16,794 nucleotides of DNA. Origin: a bacterium (GTDB taxonomy: Bacteria > JACRDZ01 > JAJRWM01). The notes under the pieces were generated by a model, which had not been told where the DNA came from, made no database searches, and saw only the letters and a program-made list of their open reading frames with translations. The stretch lies in contig JAJRWM010000065.1 of NCBI GenBank assembly GCA_024276815.1, positions 1-16,794 of the forward strand. Reading direction: 5' to 3'. Both the position numbers and the translations under genes were made by a program. This document shows positions 1,167 to 14,005 of this stretch, in pieces. Positions within the stretch are counted from its first letter, which is position 1; each line of letters starts with the position of its first letter.

Positions 1167-2035
1167 TCAGATGACCTTGTTCAAAGGATATTCGACGATA
1201 TCAGAGGCGCCCAGGCGAATCAGCCGGGGAATAATATCCCTGACGATTTTTTCTTCCAGAATGGTCTCTATCGCCCACCACTCGGGATTACTCAAATGCG
1301 AGACGGTCGGATTGTGCAGTGAAGGCAGCTCTTTGAGCAGTTTATCCAGATTGTCTTTCGAGACATTCATTTTCAACCCGACCATGCCCTCAGCCTTGAG
1401 CGCGCCTTTGAGCAGCATGATGATATTTTCGATTTTCTCTCTTTTCCATTCGTCCTGGTAACTTTTTTTATTGACTATGAACTGGGTCACGGACTCCATG
1501 ATCGTGTCAATTATTTTGAGTTTATTCGCCCGCAGCGAACTGCCGGTTTCCGTGATCTCGATGATGGCGTCAACCAGTTTCGGCACTTTCACTTCCGTCG
1601 CCCCCCAGGAAAACTCGACTTCGGCCTTGACCCCGTTTTTCGCCAGATATTTCCGGGCCAGATTAACGGCTTCCGTGGCAATTCGCTTGCCTTCAAGGTC
1701 CCTGACCGTTTTTATGTCCGAGTCTTCAGGGACAGCCAAACCCAGCGGACCGGGCGCATCCCCTGCTTGGCGTAGACCAGTTCCGTGGCGACGACCACGT
1801 CGGCGTCATTTTCCCCGACCCAGTCCCGACCGGTCAAGCCGCAGTCGATGACTCCCTCTTCCACGTAACGGGCGATTTCCTGCGCCCGGATGAGCAGACC
1901 TTCCAGCTCCGGATCATCGATCGAAGGGAAATAGGAACGCGATCTGACGCTGATGTTATAGCCGGCTTTGGCGAAGATACGAAAGGTTGATTCCTGCAGG
2001 CTGCCCTTGGGCAAACCTATTTTTAAAAGGCTCAT
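1167..2035 (-). pseudogene. hisG: ATP phosphoribosyltransferase, long form, frameshifted
   Basis: HisG condenses ATP and PRPP in the first step of histidine synthesis. The N-terminal part (about 100 residues, with IGLPKGSL and [10 protein letters not shown]) reads in one frame to RPVRWV. The rest ([12 protein letters not shown], the PRPP loop [13 protein letters not shown], and a C-terminal ACT-like regulatory part) continues in the next frame from about 1739. Adding one T to the TTT at 1738-1740 (AAA on the plus strand) restores a continuous protein of 289 residues, the normal length of the HisZ-independent long HisG. No good -1 slippery heptamer is in frame there, so a homopolymer sequencing error or a real one-base deletion is likelier than programmed shifting. 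Its ATG overlaps the hisI stop by 4 bases, so the two are translationally coupled. Confidence 0.9.
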
Positions 2036-2412
2036 TTTTTATATACCTTTTCCGGATCGAAGACTTTATTATCTTTGATTAATTTCAGTTCACCGTCAGT
2101 CACTTTGCGGTAGAAACAGGTGCTGTAACCGGTGTGGCAGGCCGCGCCGCCAACCTGCTCAATTTTCAGGACGACGCAGTCAACGTCACAATCGATCAGA
2201 ATTTCCTTGACGAGCTGGATATTGCCTGATTCCTCGCCTTTCATCCACTGCTTGTTACGGCTGCGGCTGTAATAATGAGCCTTACCTGTTTTAAGCGTAT
2301 TTTCCCAGGCCTCCCGATTCATAAAGGCGACCATTAATACTTCGTTAGTCTGATGATCCTGCACCACGGCGGCGATCAGGCCATCCAGCTTATCAAAATT
2401 CAATTCCACCAT
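2032..2412 (-). CDS. hisI: Phosphoribosyl-AMP cyclohydrolase
   Basis: This is a stand-alone HisI (126 residues) that opens the adenine ring of phosphoribosyl-AMP in the third step of histidine synthesis. It has no fused HisE domain. The sequence runs through the family signature: [17 protein letters not shown], a YYSRSR motif near residue 47, the metal-binding DCDVDC at 74-79, and the late cysteines C92 and C99 in [13 protein letters not shown]. Acidic residues D74, D76 and D78 are the expected Mg ligands and the cysteines the Zn ligands. AGGGAGA lies about 10 bases before the ATG. It is the first gene of the hisI-hisG-mscS transcript behind the promoter at 2445-2473. The hisI-hisG adjacency is also known in Desulfovibrio. 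Confidence 0.96.
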
Positions 2413-2473: not shown

Positions 2474-2640
2474 CCACCAAACTTACCAGGCAGGTGAGCC
2501 TGCTTTATGCGTCAGGTTATGGTTGCTGTTTACGTTCGTTAACGTTTTCCTGAAATTCCGCTTGATTGCCAGCGGCGCTGAATATTATTATTAGCGATGG
2601 TCTGTACCTAGGAAACGGAGATTTTGGGTAGAATAAGAAG
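2474..2640. other. Non-coding left flank of the cassette
   Basis: This stretch holds no convincing gene. A small perfect hairpin (GCAGG-TGAG-CCTGC, 2490-2503) contains CAGGTGAGC, a 9-base string also present in the attC of the cassette at 3569-3577. It may be a decayed recombination-site remnant or a coincidence. The flank ends at G2640, the presumed cleavage base where the cassette joins. Confidence 0.4.
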
Positions 2641-3584
2641 TTAGGCAGAAAACAGTAATGCTATGTGGTGGAAAATGATTCTGTTCGTGGCGGCAATAAT
2701 TGCCGTTGCCCTGGTATACGGCTCTCTTCGCTGGCAATCCGTCACGAAAACGATGCATGCCAAGCTGGAGGCAGCGCAGTTTCCCATTGAGTCTACGAGA
2801 TATGACTCCAAGGAATTAGATGGATTACCTGCACCGGTGCAACGTTATTTCCGTACCGTACTTACGGACGGGCAACCGGTGGTCTCGGCCGTCACCATTG
2901 AGCACATCGGCACTTTCAATATGAGCGAAACAGGCGAACAATGGAGGCCGTTCACTTCAATCCAGCGAGTGATAACCAAACGACAGGGATTTGTCTGGGA
3001 TGGCAGAATCAAAATAATGCCCGGCCTGACTGCGCGTGTACATGACGCCTACATCGCTGGTGAAGGAATCCTTCAGGCATCGCTTTTTGGGCTAATATCG
3101 CTGGCTAATCTACGGGGTACGCCTGAGATGGCCCGTGGTGAGTTGATGCGTTTCTTTGCAGAAGCCGCCTGGTATCCAACAGCGCTGTTACTAACCCAAG
3201 GCGTGCAGTGGGAAGCGGTAAATGAATCCTCTGCTAAAGCAACTTTGACAGACGGTGAAACTACAGTGACGTTACTGTTCCGTTTCAATGAAGAGGGCTT
3301 AATCAAGTCCGTTCGTGCCGAGGCACGGGGACGCAATGTTGCAGGCGAGATGGTGCCGACACCATGGGAAGGCCAATGGTGGAATTATGAGCTACGCGAC
3401 GGAATGCTCATTCCAATGGAAGGGAAAGTAGCATGGGTGTTTTCCGAAGGTCCGAAACCTTACTGGCGAGGTCGCATCACAAGAATCAATTATGAGTTTG
3501 CACAATGAGCAAGCCTAGTCGAATCATAAACAGCCTAACAAGGTGCTGCGCCTGACCACTATTCCGCTCAGGTGAGCTTGAACG
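2641..3584 (+). mobile_element. Single integron-type gene cassette, 944 bp
   Basis: The left end reads G/TTAGGC (G2640, then 2641-2646). One gene starts 22 bases in, and an attC-like site begins 24 bases after its stop with GCCTAAC (3533-3539) and ends with AACG (3581-3584). When the element is closed into a circle, G3584 joins TTAGGC to give GTTAGGC, the exact reverse complement of GCCTAAC. That is what an excised integron cassette must show, because IntI cuts between G and TT. The right flank reads TTCGCT, not the TTRRRY start of another cassette, and the left flank has no attC-like end. This therefore looks like a lone cassette in a secondary site (empty site G/TTCGCT), with no integrase gene in the window. 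The boundaries are read from sequence; the mechanism is inference. Confidence 0.75.
2663..3508 (+). CDS. Cassette-borne membrane-anchored DUF6544/DUF6920-like protein
   Basis: The protein has 281 residues. Residues 4-21 are a hydrophobic N-terminal anchor without a clear cleavage site, so the bulk probably faces the periplasm. The body has motifs I associate with the DUF6544/DUF6920 family: PVQRYFR near 59, W-RPF near 95, GFVWDGRI near 109, GTPEMARGELMRFFAEAAWYPTA at about 152-174, PTPWEG, and a final YWRGRI. Function is unknown; no catalytic motif is evident. It is the only gene of the cassette. The ATG at 2663 has no strong Shine-Dalgarno, which is common in cassette genes that rely on an outside promoter. 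The ATG at 2658 is in another frame and stops at once. No frame damage is seen, unlike several neighbours. Confidence 0.85.
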   Translation: MWWKMILFVAAIIAVALVYGSLRWQSVTKTMHAKLEAAQFPIESTRYDSKELDGLPAPVQRYFRTVLTDGQPVVSAVTIEHIGTFNMSETGEQWRPFTSIQRVITKRQGFVWDGRIKIMPGLTARVHDAYIAGEGILQASLFGLISLANLRGTPEMARGELMRFFAEAAWYPTALLLTQGVQWEAVNESSAKATLTDGETTVTLLFRFNEEGLIKSVRAEARGRNVAGEMVPTPWEGQWWNYELRDGMLIPMEGKVAWVFSEGPKPYWRGRITRINYEFAQ

Positions 3585-3590
3585 TTCGCT
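3533..3590 (+). repeat. attC-like recombination site
   Basis: R'' is GCCTAAC (3533-3539), followed by AAGGTGCTG. A central stem pairs CGCCTGA (3550-3556) with TCAGGTG (3568-3574), with one G-T pair. Then come AGCTTGAAC and the R' position, GTTCGCT (3584-3590). Only GTT of R' matches the consensus GTTRRRY; the remainder belongs to the chromosome flank, as expected after insertion at a secondary site. The length (58 bases) is in the short attC class. The AAGG...GGTGAGCTTGAACGTT arrangement resembles attC sites from environmental cassette arrays. Confidence 0.75.
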
Positions 3591-3977
3591 GTAACAAAAT
3601 GTACTGGGTTTGATTGGGATGAACTGCAATAGGCGAGACTTAATCTGACATTTCTCATCAAACAGGAAGTGAAGGGAAAGGATGTCAGGTGACAACAGAG
3701 CTACGGGCTTAATGGTGCGATAGAGCCTGCTTTCCGATGCAAACGTTTGATTTTTCGCAGCCAATCGGTTTACACTCCGAACCTTTTGGCGATCTCCTTT
3801 TGTGTGCCTTGTTTCTGCCGGCCGGTTTGTCATACTCGTGTCCGCAGATCCATGGAATATGTTTTCATGGATCTGATATCGGCCAGTTCCCAACAAAACA
3901 GTATAACTAATCGTTAAACGCTCCAGGGTTACCCGATACATAGCTGAGTACTCTTACGAAGCGGGGGGTTAAAAGTC
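3591..3977. other. Non-coding right flank of the cassette
   Basis: I find no recognisable gene in this 390-base stretch. A 151-codon open frame on the minus strand (3486-3941) crosses the attC site, lacks a ribosome site and has no family-like composition. A perfect 10-base inverted repeat lies inside at 3845-3875. Nothing resembles a transposase or integrase remnant. Confidence 0.5.
3845..3875. repeat. Perfect 10-bp inverted repeat, 11-nt loop
   Basis: CAGATCCATG (3845-3854) is exactly complementary to CATGGATCTG (3866-3875), with GAATATGTTTT between. The transcript could form a stable hairpin. No T tract follows on the plus strand, and on the minus strand the following bases are mixed, so it is a weak terminator candidate. 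It could also be a regulator-binding dyad or an element end. Confidence 0.6.
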
Positions 3978-4039
3978 GCGAAGCGATCTATCCTCAAACT
4001 GTAAGTTTGCGAAGCGATTTGTCCTCAAACTGTAGGTTT
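3978..4039. repeat. Two tandem 31-bp repeat units overlapping the cheV stop
   Basis: Units 3978-4008 and 4009-4039 match at 28 of 31 positions. Each begins GCGAAGCGAT and ends with an imperfect or perfect CAAACT/AGTTTG mini-palindrome. The second unit runs across the cheV stop codon (4025-4027), so the last few CheV codons lie in repeat sequence. On the minus strand TCGC-TTC-GCGA followed by CTTTT could act as a weak transcription end. Confidence 0.75.
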
Positions 4040-4932
4040 GTTGTTGGTTTGAAGTTTGAGTAAGAAGCCGACTTTTTCCAGCAGTTCGTCCATGTTTAAT
4101 TTGGTAATGTGATCGGCTTTGAGGTAGCTGGCCCGCTGTTTCATGCCAATATCCCCAATCGAGGAGTAAACGATTATCGGCAGGTCGCTTTTTTCCGGAT
4201 CATCCCGTACCATCTTGGTCAACGCCAGCCCGTCCATGCGGGGCATCTCCACGTCGGAGATAATCAGGTCAATTTTTTCTTTATTGAATTTTTCGAGGGC
4301 GTCTTTACCGTCTTTCGCGCTGATGACCGTAAAATTGTTATCCAGCAGTTCCTGTTCCAGAAAATCACGTATTGACGGACTGTCGTCGGCGATGAGGATT
4401 TTCAGCCCCCGACCGTCAAAGGACAAATTCTTAGTTTTTTCTTTTTCCTGTTCGGATTGTTCCGGGGTAAGTTCGAGCAGGATGGTCTCGTAATCGAGCA
4501 AGAGGATCATTTTCTCCACGGTCGGCTGGACAATGCTGATGACATAGGGGTTCTGTATATTCTCAAATATCTCCTCGGCGTTGATCACTTTCTCCCAGAG
4601 CAGGGTATGCACCGCTTCCACATTATCGACCAGCAACCCGTTCAGGACACCAAAAAATTCACAGACGATAATTCTACCTTTCCTTCCATCGCAGTTGGTT
4701 CACCGCCCAGAAACATGTTCAGATCGACCAGAGGGACGATATTCCCGTGGTCATTGAAAGCGCCGCGTACACAGGGAGCGGCGTTCACCAGGGTACGGAA
4801 ACCGTGCGGCTCTTTGAGAATACGGCTGACCTTGAGCATATTGATACCATAGAAATGACCGCCCGCCTCGTATTCCAGAACTTTTAAGACATTTGACCCG
4901 GAGCTTAAATATGTATCAGCTTGATGGCCCAT
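4025..4932 (-). pseudogene. cheV: Chemotaxis coupling protein CheV, frameshifted
   Basis: CheV couples chemoreceptors to CheA through a CheW domain and tunes this with a phosphorylatable receiver domain. The CheW part (LEYEAGGHFYGINMLKVSRIL...VPLVDLNMFLGG) reads from the ATG at 4932. A frame change at the six-T run (4652-4657 as A on plus) sends it to a TGA at 4642-4644. The next frame continues with FFGVLNGLLVDNV, the rest of CheW, and a receiver domain with ADDS, the phospho-acceptor Asp in ISDVEMP, YSS, and the late Lys in ITKLN. Adding one T gives 302 residues, normal for CheV. The break reads T TTT TTG in frame, a canonical -1 slip heptamer, so programmed shifting is conceivable, though the short product would be half a CheW. 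GGAGGAG lies 7 bases before the ATG, and the kinase stop is 2 bases upstream. Confidence 0.88.
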
Positions 4933-8827: not shown

Positions 8828-10063
8828 ATGAATATTTTCTCAATATTTTCTCGGATGGATATTCTCTTCTTCGTTTCGCTCGCGCTTTTCGCCGGACTGG
8901 TCGGTGGCAAGTTTTTTCGTAAACTACGCTTCCCCCAGCTGGTGGGTTATATCGTTATCGGGGTGATCATCGGGGTTTCAGGATTTAACCTGATCAGCGA
9001 GGAAATCTTCAAGAGTTTGGAGATCATCGAATATTTTACTCTGGGAATTATTGGCTTCATGGTGGGACGGGAGTTGAAATTTTCCGTTTTCGCGCGGTTA
9101 GGTAAAACGATTTTCACGATTCTCTGCTTTGAGGTTCTGGGCGCTTTTTTGCTGGTTACCCTGACAGTCTGGCTCATCACCCGAAATATCGTTATCGCGC
9201 TTATCCTGGGGTCTCTCGCCACAGCCACGGCTCCGGCGGCAACAGTTGAGGTGCTCTGGGAATATAAGGCCAAGGGAGTCCTGACCACGACGATTTTCTC
9301 CCTGGTGGCCCTGGACGACGTGCTGGCGCTTTTTATTTACGTTTTCGCTGTTTCCTACGCCAAGACAATGATTGGCAATTCGGAGTTTTCACTTGTTAAA
9401 ATAATCTTCATGCCGCTGATTGAAATCGGCTCTTCTGTTCTTCTGGGAGTCATCAGCGGTTTTGTTTTGGGCTGGCTGGCTGAAAAAGTGTTCAGGGAAA
9501 AGCAGTGTTTACCGCTCATTTTGGCCATGATTATGCTCAATATGAGTATCGCCAAATATTTTCACCTTTCCCACATACTTTCCTGTATGATACTGGGAAT
9601 GACCCTGGTCAACCTGAACATATCCCGAGGCAAATACGCTTTTATGGTTATTGAGGATTTCACCGGGCCGCTCTATATCCTCTTTTTTGTTTTAGTCGGT
9701 TCCCAACTGCAAGTCAGGGAGCTTCCCAACATCGGCATGTTGGGCCTGGCCTACATCGGGGCGCGGATGGCTGGCAAGATCACTGGCGCCAAGGTGGGCG
9801 GGAAAGTGTCCCACGCGGCGCCGGCGGTCCGGAAATATTTAGGCTACGCTTTGTTCGATCAAGCCGGAGTCGCCATCGGTCTGGCCCTGGCAGTCAAGCG
9901 TGAATTCAGTTATTCAGGCGTTCAGGGTGAGCAAATTGGCGAACTGGTGTTAAATATAATCATGGCTTCGACCTTTGTCGTTCAGTTGATTGGTCCGTCT
10001 TTTGTTAAGTACGCGATTGTCAAAGCCGGAGAAGCGGGAGTGGACCCCAAAGTGGCGGCCTGA
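8828..10063 (+). CDS. CPA2-type cation/proton antiporter, copy 1
   Basis: This 411-residue integral membrane protein has about 11-13 hydrophobic segments along its length. It carries the Na+/H+ exchanger fold signature ATATAPAAT (about 131-139) with an ALDDVLAL motif whose acidic pair is D163-D164, the ion-binding site in NapA/KefB-like exchangers. It probably exchanges Na+ or K+ for H+. There is no C-terminal TrkA-N domain, so it differs from full KefB/KefC. It shares most of its sequence with the next gene. No Shine-Dalgarno is evident before ATG 8828. The ATG at 8855 (MDIL...) aligns with the start of the second copy and is a possible true start. The ion is not decided by sequence. Confidence 0.88.
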   Translation: MNIFSIFSRMDILFFVSLALFAGLVGGKFFRKLRFPQLVGYIVIGVIIGVSGFNLISEEIFKSLEIIEYFTLGIIGFMVGRELKFSVFARLGKTIFTILCFEVLGAFLLVTLTVWLITRNIVIALILGSLATATAPAATVEVLWEYKAKGVLTTTIFSLVALDDVLALFIYVFAVSYAKTMIGNSEFSLVKIIFMPLIEIGSSVLLGVISGFVLGWLAEKVFREKQCLPLILAMIMLNMSIAKYFHLSHILSCMILGMTLVNLNISRGKYAFMVIEDFTGPLYILFFVLVGSQLQVRELPNIGMLGLAYIGARMAGKITGAKVGGKVSHAAPAVRKYLGYALFDQAGVAIGLALAVKREFSYSGVQGEQIGELVLNIIMASTFVVQLIGPSFVKYAIVKAGEAGVDPKVAA

Positions 10064-10135
10064 TTTTTCGGACTCAGGTTCTTCCGGCTTCCTCGCTTAT
10101 TAAAAACCGATAAATATTGTGATCAGGTATAATTT

Positions 10136-11332
10136 ATGGATATTCTTTTAATTCTTGGCATTATCATCGCCGCCGGGCTGGGAAGCGGGAAGTTCTTCCA
10201 GAAAATCCGCTTTCCCCAGGTGGTGGGTTTTATCGTTATCGGCGCTGTTATCGGCCGCTCAGGTTTTGGCCTGCTTAACGCCGAGCTGTTTGAGAGCATG
10301 TCGCCGATTAACAGTTTCGCCCTGGGCTTGATTGGTTTCATGGTGGGGCGGGAATTAACCTTTTCGGTTTTCAAGCAGTTGGGCAAGACGATCTTCACGA
10401 TTCTCTGCTTTGAGGTTCTGGGCGCCTTCTTCCTGGTCACCCTGGTTATCTGGCTTATCACTCAAAAGCTTTACATCGCTTTGGTCTTTGGCGCTTTAGC
10501 CACGGCTACCGCTCCGGCGGCGACGGTTGACGTTTTGTGGGAGTGCAAGGCCAAGGGAGTCCTGACCACGACGATTTTTTCCCTGGTGGCCCTGGATGAC
10601 GTGCTGGCGCTTTTGGTCTACGCCTTTGCTGTTTCTTATGCCAAGGCTTTAATCAGCAGTTCCACGTTGTCGGTTATGAAAGTATTGTTTGTGCCCTTGT
10701 TTGAGATCGGCGCCTCCATGATACTGGGGGTTGCCTGCGGCTTTATTCTGGGCTGGGTCGCTGAAAGGATAAAGGATGAAAAGCAGTACCTGCCGCTGAT
10801 GCTGGCGACGATCATGATTTCTATCGGGATCGCCAACCATTTTCATCTCTCGCTGATATTGAGTTGCATGATGCTGGGGATGACGCTGGTTAACTTACGG
10901 CTTTCCCGCAGTCAGCACGCTTTTAAGGTGATGGAGGATTTTACCGGACCGGTTTACATCATCTTTTTTGTTCTGATCGGTTCCCAGTTCCAGATCAACA
11001 CGCTACCCAGCATGGGCTTGTTGGGCTTGGCGTATATCGGGGCGCGGATGGCCGGCAAAATTGCCGGCACCCGGCTCGGAGCAACCGTTTCCCAAGCTGA
11101 TCCGGCGGTCAGGAAATATGTAGGTCTGGCTCTTTTTTCTCAGGCTGGGGTAGCTATCGGTCTGGCTCTGGCTGTCGATCATGAGTTCAGCTACCTGGGC
11201 ACCCAGGGTGAAGAGTTAGGCAGTATGGTAATAAACGTGATCATGGCTACGACGTTCGTTGTCCAGCTTATCGGCCCTCCCTGCGTCAAGTACGCGGTAA
11301 CCAAAGCTGGCGAAGTCCCGACAAGAGGATAA
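10136..11332 (+). CDS. CPA2-type cation/proton antiporter, copy 2
   Basis: This 398-residue paralogue of the preceding gene lies 72 bases downstream on the same strand, probably in one transcript. It has the same membrane plan, with ATATAPAAT at about 122-130 and the acidic pair D154-D155 in ALDDVLAL. The start MDILLILG has AGG about 9 bases upstream. DNA identity with copy 1 is very high in places: 9113-9144 equals 10394-10425 exactly, and 9266-9332 matches 10547-10613 with two differences. This points to a tandem duplication, perhaps with later gene conversion. The loops and the 50-60 region differ more, leaving room for different regulation or ion choice. The stop lies 4 bases from the CCA end of the convergent tRNA gene. 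Confidence 0.88.
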   Translation: MDILLILGIIIAAGLGSGKFFQKIRFPQVVGFIVIGAVIGRSGFGLLNAELFESMSPINSFALGLIGFMVGRELTFSVFKQLGKTIFTILCFEVLGAFFLVTLVIWLITQKLYIALVFGALATATAPAATVDVLWECKAKGVLTTTIFSLVALDDVLALLVYAFAVSYAKALISSSTLSVMKVLFVPLFEIGASMILGVACGFILGWVAERIKDEKQYLPLMLATIMISIGIANHFHLSLILSCMMLGMTLVNLRLSRSQHAFKVMEDFTGPVYIIFFVLIGSQFQINTLPSMGLLGLAYIGARMAGKIAGTRLGATVSQADPAVRKYVGLALFSQAGVAIGLALAVDHEFSYLGTQGEELGSMVINVIMATTFVVQLIGPPCVKYAVTKAGEVPTRG

Positions 11333-13168: not shown

Positions 13169-14005
13169 TTGGATTTATGGTTCAAAGAGATACACAATGG
13201 CAGTTTTGGCTTATTGATAAAAGTCAGGAGAAGCTTGTATCATGGGGAAAGTCAGTATCAAAAGCTAGACATCGTTGAAACAGAAGACATGGGTCGGATG
13301 ATGCTTCTGGACGGCCTGGTAATGTTCACGGAAAGAGATGAATTTGTTTATCATGAGATGATCGCCCATGTACCCCTGACAGTTCATCCCAATCCCGGGA
13401 ACGTCCTGGTGATTGGCGGCGGCGACGGCGGCACGGTCCGAGAAATTGCGCGGCACCCCCAGGTCACGCGAATTGATCTGGTAGAGATAGATGAACTGGT
13501 CGTTGATAAAGCGAAAGAGTTTTTCCCGACCGTGAGTTGTGAGCTGGATAATCCCAAAGTCACAGTCCACTACAAGGATGGAATTGAGTTCGTCAAAAAA
13601 TCAAAAGACAAGTATGACGTGATAATCGTGGATTCGACCGACCCGATTGGCCCGGCGGTCGGTCTTTTCAGCCACGAATTCTATCAGGACTGCTTTAACG
13701 CCCTGCAAAAAGACGGGATTCTGACAGCCCAGACGGAAAGTCCTTTTTTTGATGTTGAGCTGATTAAAAAGATCTATGCCAATCTGCAACAAGCTTTTCC
13801 CCTGTTCAGGATGTACCTGGCGCCGGTGCCAACCTATCCCGGCGGATACTGGAGCTTCGCCTTCGCCTCAAAAAAGTATCGCCCGATTCTGGACCTGAAC
13901 AAAGAGCGGGCGGAAACCATCAGCCGGAGCACAAAATTTTACAATCCCCAAATCCATGTATCGGGTTTTTCCCTGCCCAACTTCGTGAAAAAAATATTCT
14001 CATGA
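13169..14005 (+). CDS. speE: Spermidine synthase (polyamine aminopropyltransferase)
   Basis: SpeE transfers the aminopropyl group of decarboxylated AdoMet to putrescine. The 278-residue protein starts (L/M)DLWFKEIH, typical of SpeE, at a TTG (13169) with AGGAG 8 bases before it; no ATG fits better. YHEM (61-64) and GGGDGG (83-88) form the substrate pocket and AdoMet loop. DSTDP (155-159) holds the catalytic Asp, and PTYPGGYWSFAFAS closes the site. It overlaps speB by 4 bases (ATGA). With the local SpeD inactive, it needs decarboxylated AdoMet from another SpeD, or is idle. Putrescine comes from the neighbouring SpeB. Confidence 0.96.
   Translation: MDLWFKEIHNGSFGLLIKVRRSLYHGESQYQKLDIVETEDMGRMMLLDGLVMFTERDEFVYHEMIAHVPLTVHPNPGNVLVIGGGDGGTVREIARHPQVTRIDLVEIDELVVDKAKEFFPTVSCELDNPKVTVHYKDGIEFVKKSKDKYDVIIVDSTDPIGPAVGLFSHEFYQDCFNALQKDGILTAQTESPFFDVELIKKIYANLQQAFPLFRMYLAPVPTYPGGYWSFAFASKKYRPILDLNKERAETISRSTKFYNPQIHVSGFSLPNFVKKIFS

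Follow-up and report, generated by a model that had tools for sequence, protein, structure and literature searches.

A single integron gene cassette lies between hisI and a cheV-like gene in the window, the whole contig of 16,794 bp (C230) that was analyzed. The locus is probably, with a chance of roughly two in three, a decayed integron outside the clinical classes, which has kept an attI site, perhaps a promoter, and one cassette after the loss of its integrase gene, intI. The contig belongs to an assembly (G000) of 2.39 Mb in 246 contigs that is 91% complete. The first-pass annotation had recognized the cassette, its starting G/TTAGGC and its attC site, and we agree on these points; however, it had explained the cassette by capture at a random secondary G/TT. 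In contrast, our comparison identified the left flank as a conserved attI-like site that recurs on a second contig of the same assembly (C28) and at an intI-linked position in a Deltaproteobacteria MAG (G060).

The cassette and its attC site

The cassette occupies positions 2641..3584 of the plus strand. Its left junction is G/TTAGGC at 2640/2641, so that it starts as TTRRRY behind a G with TTAGGC, and it ends with an attC site plus G. The two ends are complementary, since GTTAGGC, recreated by joining them (the final G and the first six bases of the cassette), is the exact reverse complement of the R'' box GCCTAAC, as previously noted. In other carriers, too, the similarity sets in at this junction. 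The right flank, TTCGCT, is no cassette start, also in agreement with the first-pass annotation.

The attC site (3533..3590, plus strand) spans 3533-3584 within the cassette and extends through the flanking TTCGCT up to 3590. Its register fits that of clinical and class 1 attC sites: R'' of 7 bases (3533-3539), a spacer of 5, L'' of 3 plus 5 bases around 1 extrahelical base (3545-3553), L' of 8 (3570-3577), a spacer of 6, and R' from 3584. All 8 pairs of the L boxes form, one as G-T, and R and L pairing was also seen across the attC sites of an alignment that includes the window site. A strict attC descriptor matched the window site and one more, on the minus strand at 13760, while its background was 0.3 matches per Markov-shuffled window.

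A covariance model from 14 clinical attC sites ranked the window site first, but weakly (9.1 bits, E 1.5); this score is not significant and was not accepted alone as proof. The low value is perhaps in part due to the post-crossover bases, which are now TTCGCT. The identity of the site was settled by a broader model, which was built without it and gave 35.9 bits and E 7e-7, with the next match in the window at E 0.65. Sites of its attC type on C28, C73, and C95 are among those in the model. By this model, the contig has only one attC. The folding energy, also proposed earlier as a check, is not remarkable for the inserted site alone (z -0.42) and somewhat better for the circular form (z -1.94). 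In blastn comparisons, the attC of C73 in G060 was 93.9% identical to the window attC over 33 bp and 95.5% identical to the C28 attC over 66 bp. The unit in the window is confirmed as a genuine integron cassette.

A simple scan for near-perfect complementarity between R'' and the following R' was discarded; it misses even the sites of genuine arrays, in which R' is part of the cassette that follows. Two other candidates in G000 were also rejected: an attC-like match on C126 (20.5 bits, model R2) appears inside a coding region, and a pattern match on C228 is unsupported by the attC models. A plasmid search with the rejoined attC yielded chance matches only.

A conserved attI-like site precedes the cassette

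The first hint of an attI site came from the closest homologue (L004, in G060), which shares bases left of the supposed cassette border. The attI-like site of the window, GGAGATTTTGGGTAGAATAAGAAG^TT, occupies 2613..2642 of the plus strand, with the crossover between 2640 and 2641. A 23-base junction motif, GATTTTGGGTAGAATAAGAAG/TT, occurs just twice in the 2.39-Mb assembly when <=3 mismatches are allowed. When all four genomes of the phylum (G000-G003) were searched for it with this tolerance, both matches fell in G000, each at a cassette start. These copies precede the two clearly supported attC cassettes of G000, namely those of the window and C28, whose left junctions read GGAGATTTTGGGTAGAATAAGAAG^TTAG and GGAGATTTTGAGTAGAAAAATAAG^TTAG, respectively; the similarity between the two flanks has a p of about 0.003 against shuffles. 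The C28 unit (L185, 568-1705) is a second lone cassette consisting of an attI-like site, a TIR gene (PADLOC TIR-TM match, 380 bits), and an attC, and a PEP-CTERM protein gene comes after it.

G060 has the motif as GGAGATTGGGTAGAAC in the interval that separates intI from an attC. There, it stands upstream of the divergent intI at a distance of about 140 bp, in the position of attI. Three more copies in this genome, on C73, on C95, and at L004, each start a cassette; those on C73 and C95 read GGAGATTGGGTAGAATAAGGAG^TT, and C95 carries a two-cassette array. Window positions 2613-2652 were 87.5% identical to C95 over 40 bp (blastn, E 1.6e-5). In two genomes (G000 and G060), the window motif thus recurs at one site linked to intI and at the starts of four further cassettes, and this comparison suggests that it functions as attI. 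Thus, the earlier statement that the left flank has no attC was correct in that the site is not an attC, but a recognizable attI-like recombination site is present.

The consensus of this attI family, recognized by comparison in G000 and G060, is GGAGATT(TT)GGGTAGAAY-N-G^TT, which can be written as the pattern GGAGATTN{0,2}GGGTAGAAYRAN{1,3}GTT. Little has been described of attI sites outside class 1 integrons, and IntegronFinder does not find them (PMC9024848). In our comparison, the attI type of the window was matched to no described class. An exact search of viral contigs for the motif found none. The sequence GTAAATAAGAAGTT beside intI in G003 resembles the window flank; it was not used as proof, because the homology between contigs C35 and C21 of G003 continues to a later G/TT.

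Behind the same motif, the cassettes on C95 (L204, 3455-6665) and C73 (L203, 7456-9800) have genes of the OLD/GajA-like, DUF2726, and CARF-nuclease-like types. One C73 cassette, which has an attI copy of its own, lies in inverted orientation to the intI-linked attI, and its attC end abuts GTAGAAC of the latter.

Promoter-like pair and integrase gene

A promoter-like pair, TTGATT-18-TATTAT, stands at the Pc position (2562..2591, plus strand). It matches the promoter consensus and may be the cassette promoter Pc; by count, such pairs are no commoner than chance, with 3 in the window against 2.1 expected. C28 has a similar pair (515-543) at nearly the same distance before its cassette, and a pair TTGACA-17-TATATC can be read upstream of the intI-linked attI of G060. 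A further promoter-like pair belongs to hisI itself, and this gene starts at a distance of just 228 bp from the crossover. The earlier description of the cassette gene as promoterless is doubtful for its present place, because the promoter-like pair stands before the attI-like site.

No intI was found at the locus, as the first-pass annotation had stated, and no trace of one lies left of the attI-like site in either the window or C28. The annotation had also proposed a search for intI elsewhere in the genome. In the 91%-complete assembly, no IntI exceeded the cut-off, and the one match, to a recombinase-like frame, was weak; since the assembly is incomplete and divided into 246 contigs, it may lack an intI that the genome has. 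IntI matches over the cut-off were found in 3/3 other genomes of the phylum (G001, G002, and G003), one or two in each, and G002 and G003 also yielded attC arrays. In G003, contig C35 carries a complete integron and contig C21 an attI-like site with an attC array but no intI; the two contigs are similar over about 190-230 bp up to the crossover. The C21 locus (L191, 249-2176), whose attC array is weak, lies beside a suhB-like gene.

The intI of G060 appears in different states. The copy on C73, the only strong IntI match in this genome, is truncated and has no C-terminal part, as its homology to several other integrases ends at 9593-9623. A relic on C95 retains residues 1-65 (tblastn, E 0.017), with a DNA identity of 74.7% over 83 bp (E 1e-8). 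The stretch examined around L004 contained no intI. These loci look like a series of intI decay, with the window and C28 as its end states.

Origin of the locus

In the reading that we prefer, an integron with intI left of the attI-like site would once have stood here. On the circular cassette, IntI would have taken the attC as a folded bottom strand and joined this attC to the G/TT of attI, and the joining would have placed the cassette gene downstream of Pc. intI would then have been lost, while the attI-like site (2613-2642), perhaps Pc (2562-2591), and one cassette were kept. Several findings speak against a decayed integron: the region left of the site, where hisI with its own promoter-like pair starts 228 bp from the crossover, has no trace of intI, and the G060 integrase gene that neighbours the motif is itself incomplete.

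Alternatively, dispersed attI sites without an intI of their own may be loaded in trans, now or recently, by an integrase encoded elsewhere. Integrons of some bacteria would then be scattered small attI sites with a promoter and one or two cassettes, and the window would be one satellite. G000 has two intI-less attI-like loci and G060 has several, and we leave some room for this explanation because G003 has an intI-less array (C21) beside a complete integron (C35) in the same genome. However, G000 has no IntI over the cut-off to supply such sites, the only strong IntI of G060 is truncated, and the relic on C95 points to decay of full platforms. We therefore regard supply in trans as unlikely.

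The explanation given by the first-pass annotation, an off-target (attG-type) insertion at a random chromosomal G/TT between hisI and cheV, agrees with the lack of a nearby intI and with a right flank that is no cassette start. Off-target inversions (PMC10127599) and secondary sites (PMC2426708) are documented, and off-target insertion is described for integrases in general, according to the passage of PMC11023631 that cites Loot et al. 2024. However, the left flank is shared with the independent C28 locus and with the intI-linked and cassette-linked sites of G060, so that the target is related to att sites, and we consider random insertion quite improbable. The hisI-cheV adjacency is not kept in the other three genomes of the phylum (G001-G003), and the proposed comparison with an empty site thus gave no answer. 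A conserved left flank offers a practical test between a decayed integron and a true off-target insertion, and a cassette that seems stranded in the chromosome can be what is left of an integron.

We give hardly any weight to a larger moving unit, in which promoter, attI, and cassette left an integron together as one circle and were reinserted whole: cassettes carrying pieces of attI exist in class 1 and 2 integrons (PMC12901181), and the similarity between the C73 and C95 copies of G060 extends further (82% over 558 bp, with the repeat counted in), but the known cassettes carry the piece downstream of the gene, not upstream, and neither the window nor C28 has a left border with G/TT and shared ends.

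As a probable decayed integron, the locus can be compared with several known systems. A CALIN, a cluster of attC sites lacking an integron integrase, is thought to be a degraded integron (PMC9024848). The window similarly has an attC cassette without a nearby intI; however, the default threshold of IntegronFinder for a CALIN is two attC sites, whereas the window has one, and the definition asks for no attI, whereas the window keeps an attI-like site. An attG or secondary-site insertion is likewise a single cassette without a platform, but its target is a one-off genomic G(W)T, in contrast to the motif here, which is conserved among loci and genomes. The “pseudo-integrons” with intI pseudogenes (PMC2426708) are also chromosomal remains after loss of integrase function; their intI is broken by a stop or frameshift, whereas in the window intI is entirely absent, and attI and one cassette are left. 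Defence-like genes (TIR, OLD/GajA-like, and CARF-nuclease-like) make up cargo of the sibling cassettes, which would fit cassettes outliving the integrase when what they carry is useful.

Relatives of the cassette and its protein

Eighty relatives are spread over very different phyla. Two loci (L005 and L006) share DNA with the window from about the left junction rightward, and homologues in other phyla begin at the same G/TT. At L005, another attC immediately precedes the same cassette start, and at L008, L010, L011, L021, and L022 an attC lies beside the gene or in its array. The same unit thus occurs in other arrays or behind other attC sites (L005; L008, L010, L021, and L022), and these comparisons indicate that the cassette is mobile. 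The MAG labels of the contigs carrying such DUF6920 cassettes are to be treated with care. L010 and L008, on contigs labelled cyanobacterium and Hadarchaeum, are further DUF6920 cassettes and apparently solitary.

The only gene in the cassette (2663..3508, plus strand) is intact, as was claimed earlier; it encodes 281 amino acids with no stops, and the product is predicted to be membrane-anchored. It belongs to DUF6920/DUF6544, with Pfam matches of E 4e-81 and 6e-69 (272 and 232 bits, above the curated cut-offs of 27 and 25). The dN/dS was 0.31 against L004 and 0.10-0.12 against three other relatives, and the protein is under purifying selection. Its structure model (pLDDT 93.5) combines a single long N-terminal helix with a curved sheet that resembles that of LolB/LolA. 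Residues 53-280 match the LolB/LolA fold with Z up to 11.5 (192 residues, 4.2 A), and Foldseek matched a LolA/LolB-like fold with E 1.8e-5, whereas the sequence identity to this superfamily is only 3-9%; no solved structure gave a significant sequence match. In contrast to LolA/LolB proteins, it is anchored by the N-terminal helix, and the likeness concerns the predicted fold. Judging from the model, the protein is most likely a membrane-anchored binder of lipid or another hydrophobic ligand. PADLOC gave no match for it, and our literature search found no papers naming DUF6544 or DUF6920.

Flanking sequences

On the left of the cassette, hisI (2035-2412, minus strand) has a PRA-CH domain match, and hisG (1167-2035) is split into two frames, between which the HisG domain is divided. 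On the right, cheV (4025-4932) is also split into two frames, with the CheW and receiver parts divided between them. Both splits are frameshifts, either from assembly errors or from gene decay.

About 37 unique bases separate the cassette end from a repeat of ~305 bp (3624..3928), a probable insertion sequence remnant with a ~96% identical copy on C219. One end of the repeat is common to a transposase-like frame with a helix-turn-helix domain on C43, and we take the repeat to be of the IS481 type. It does not belong to the cassette but represents a separate insertion next to it. Positions 3929-4020 hold a short repeat that recurs in about 20 partial copies in other parts of the genome. Farther to the right (8828-11332), two adjacent antiporter-like genes with a DNA identity of 72% over 1.15 kb represent a tandem duplication.
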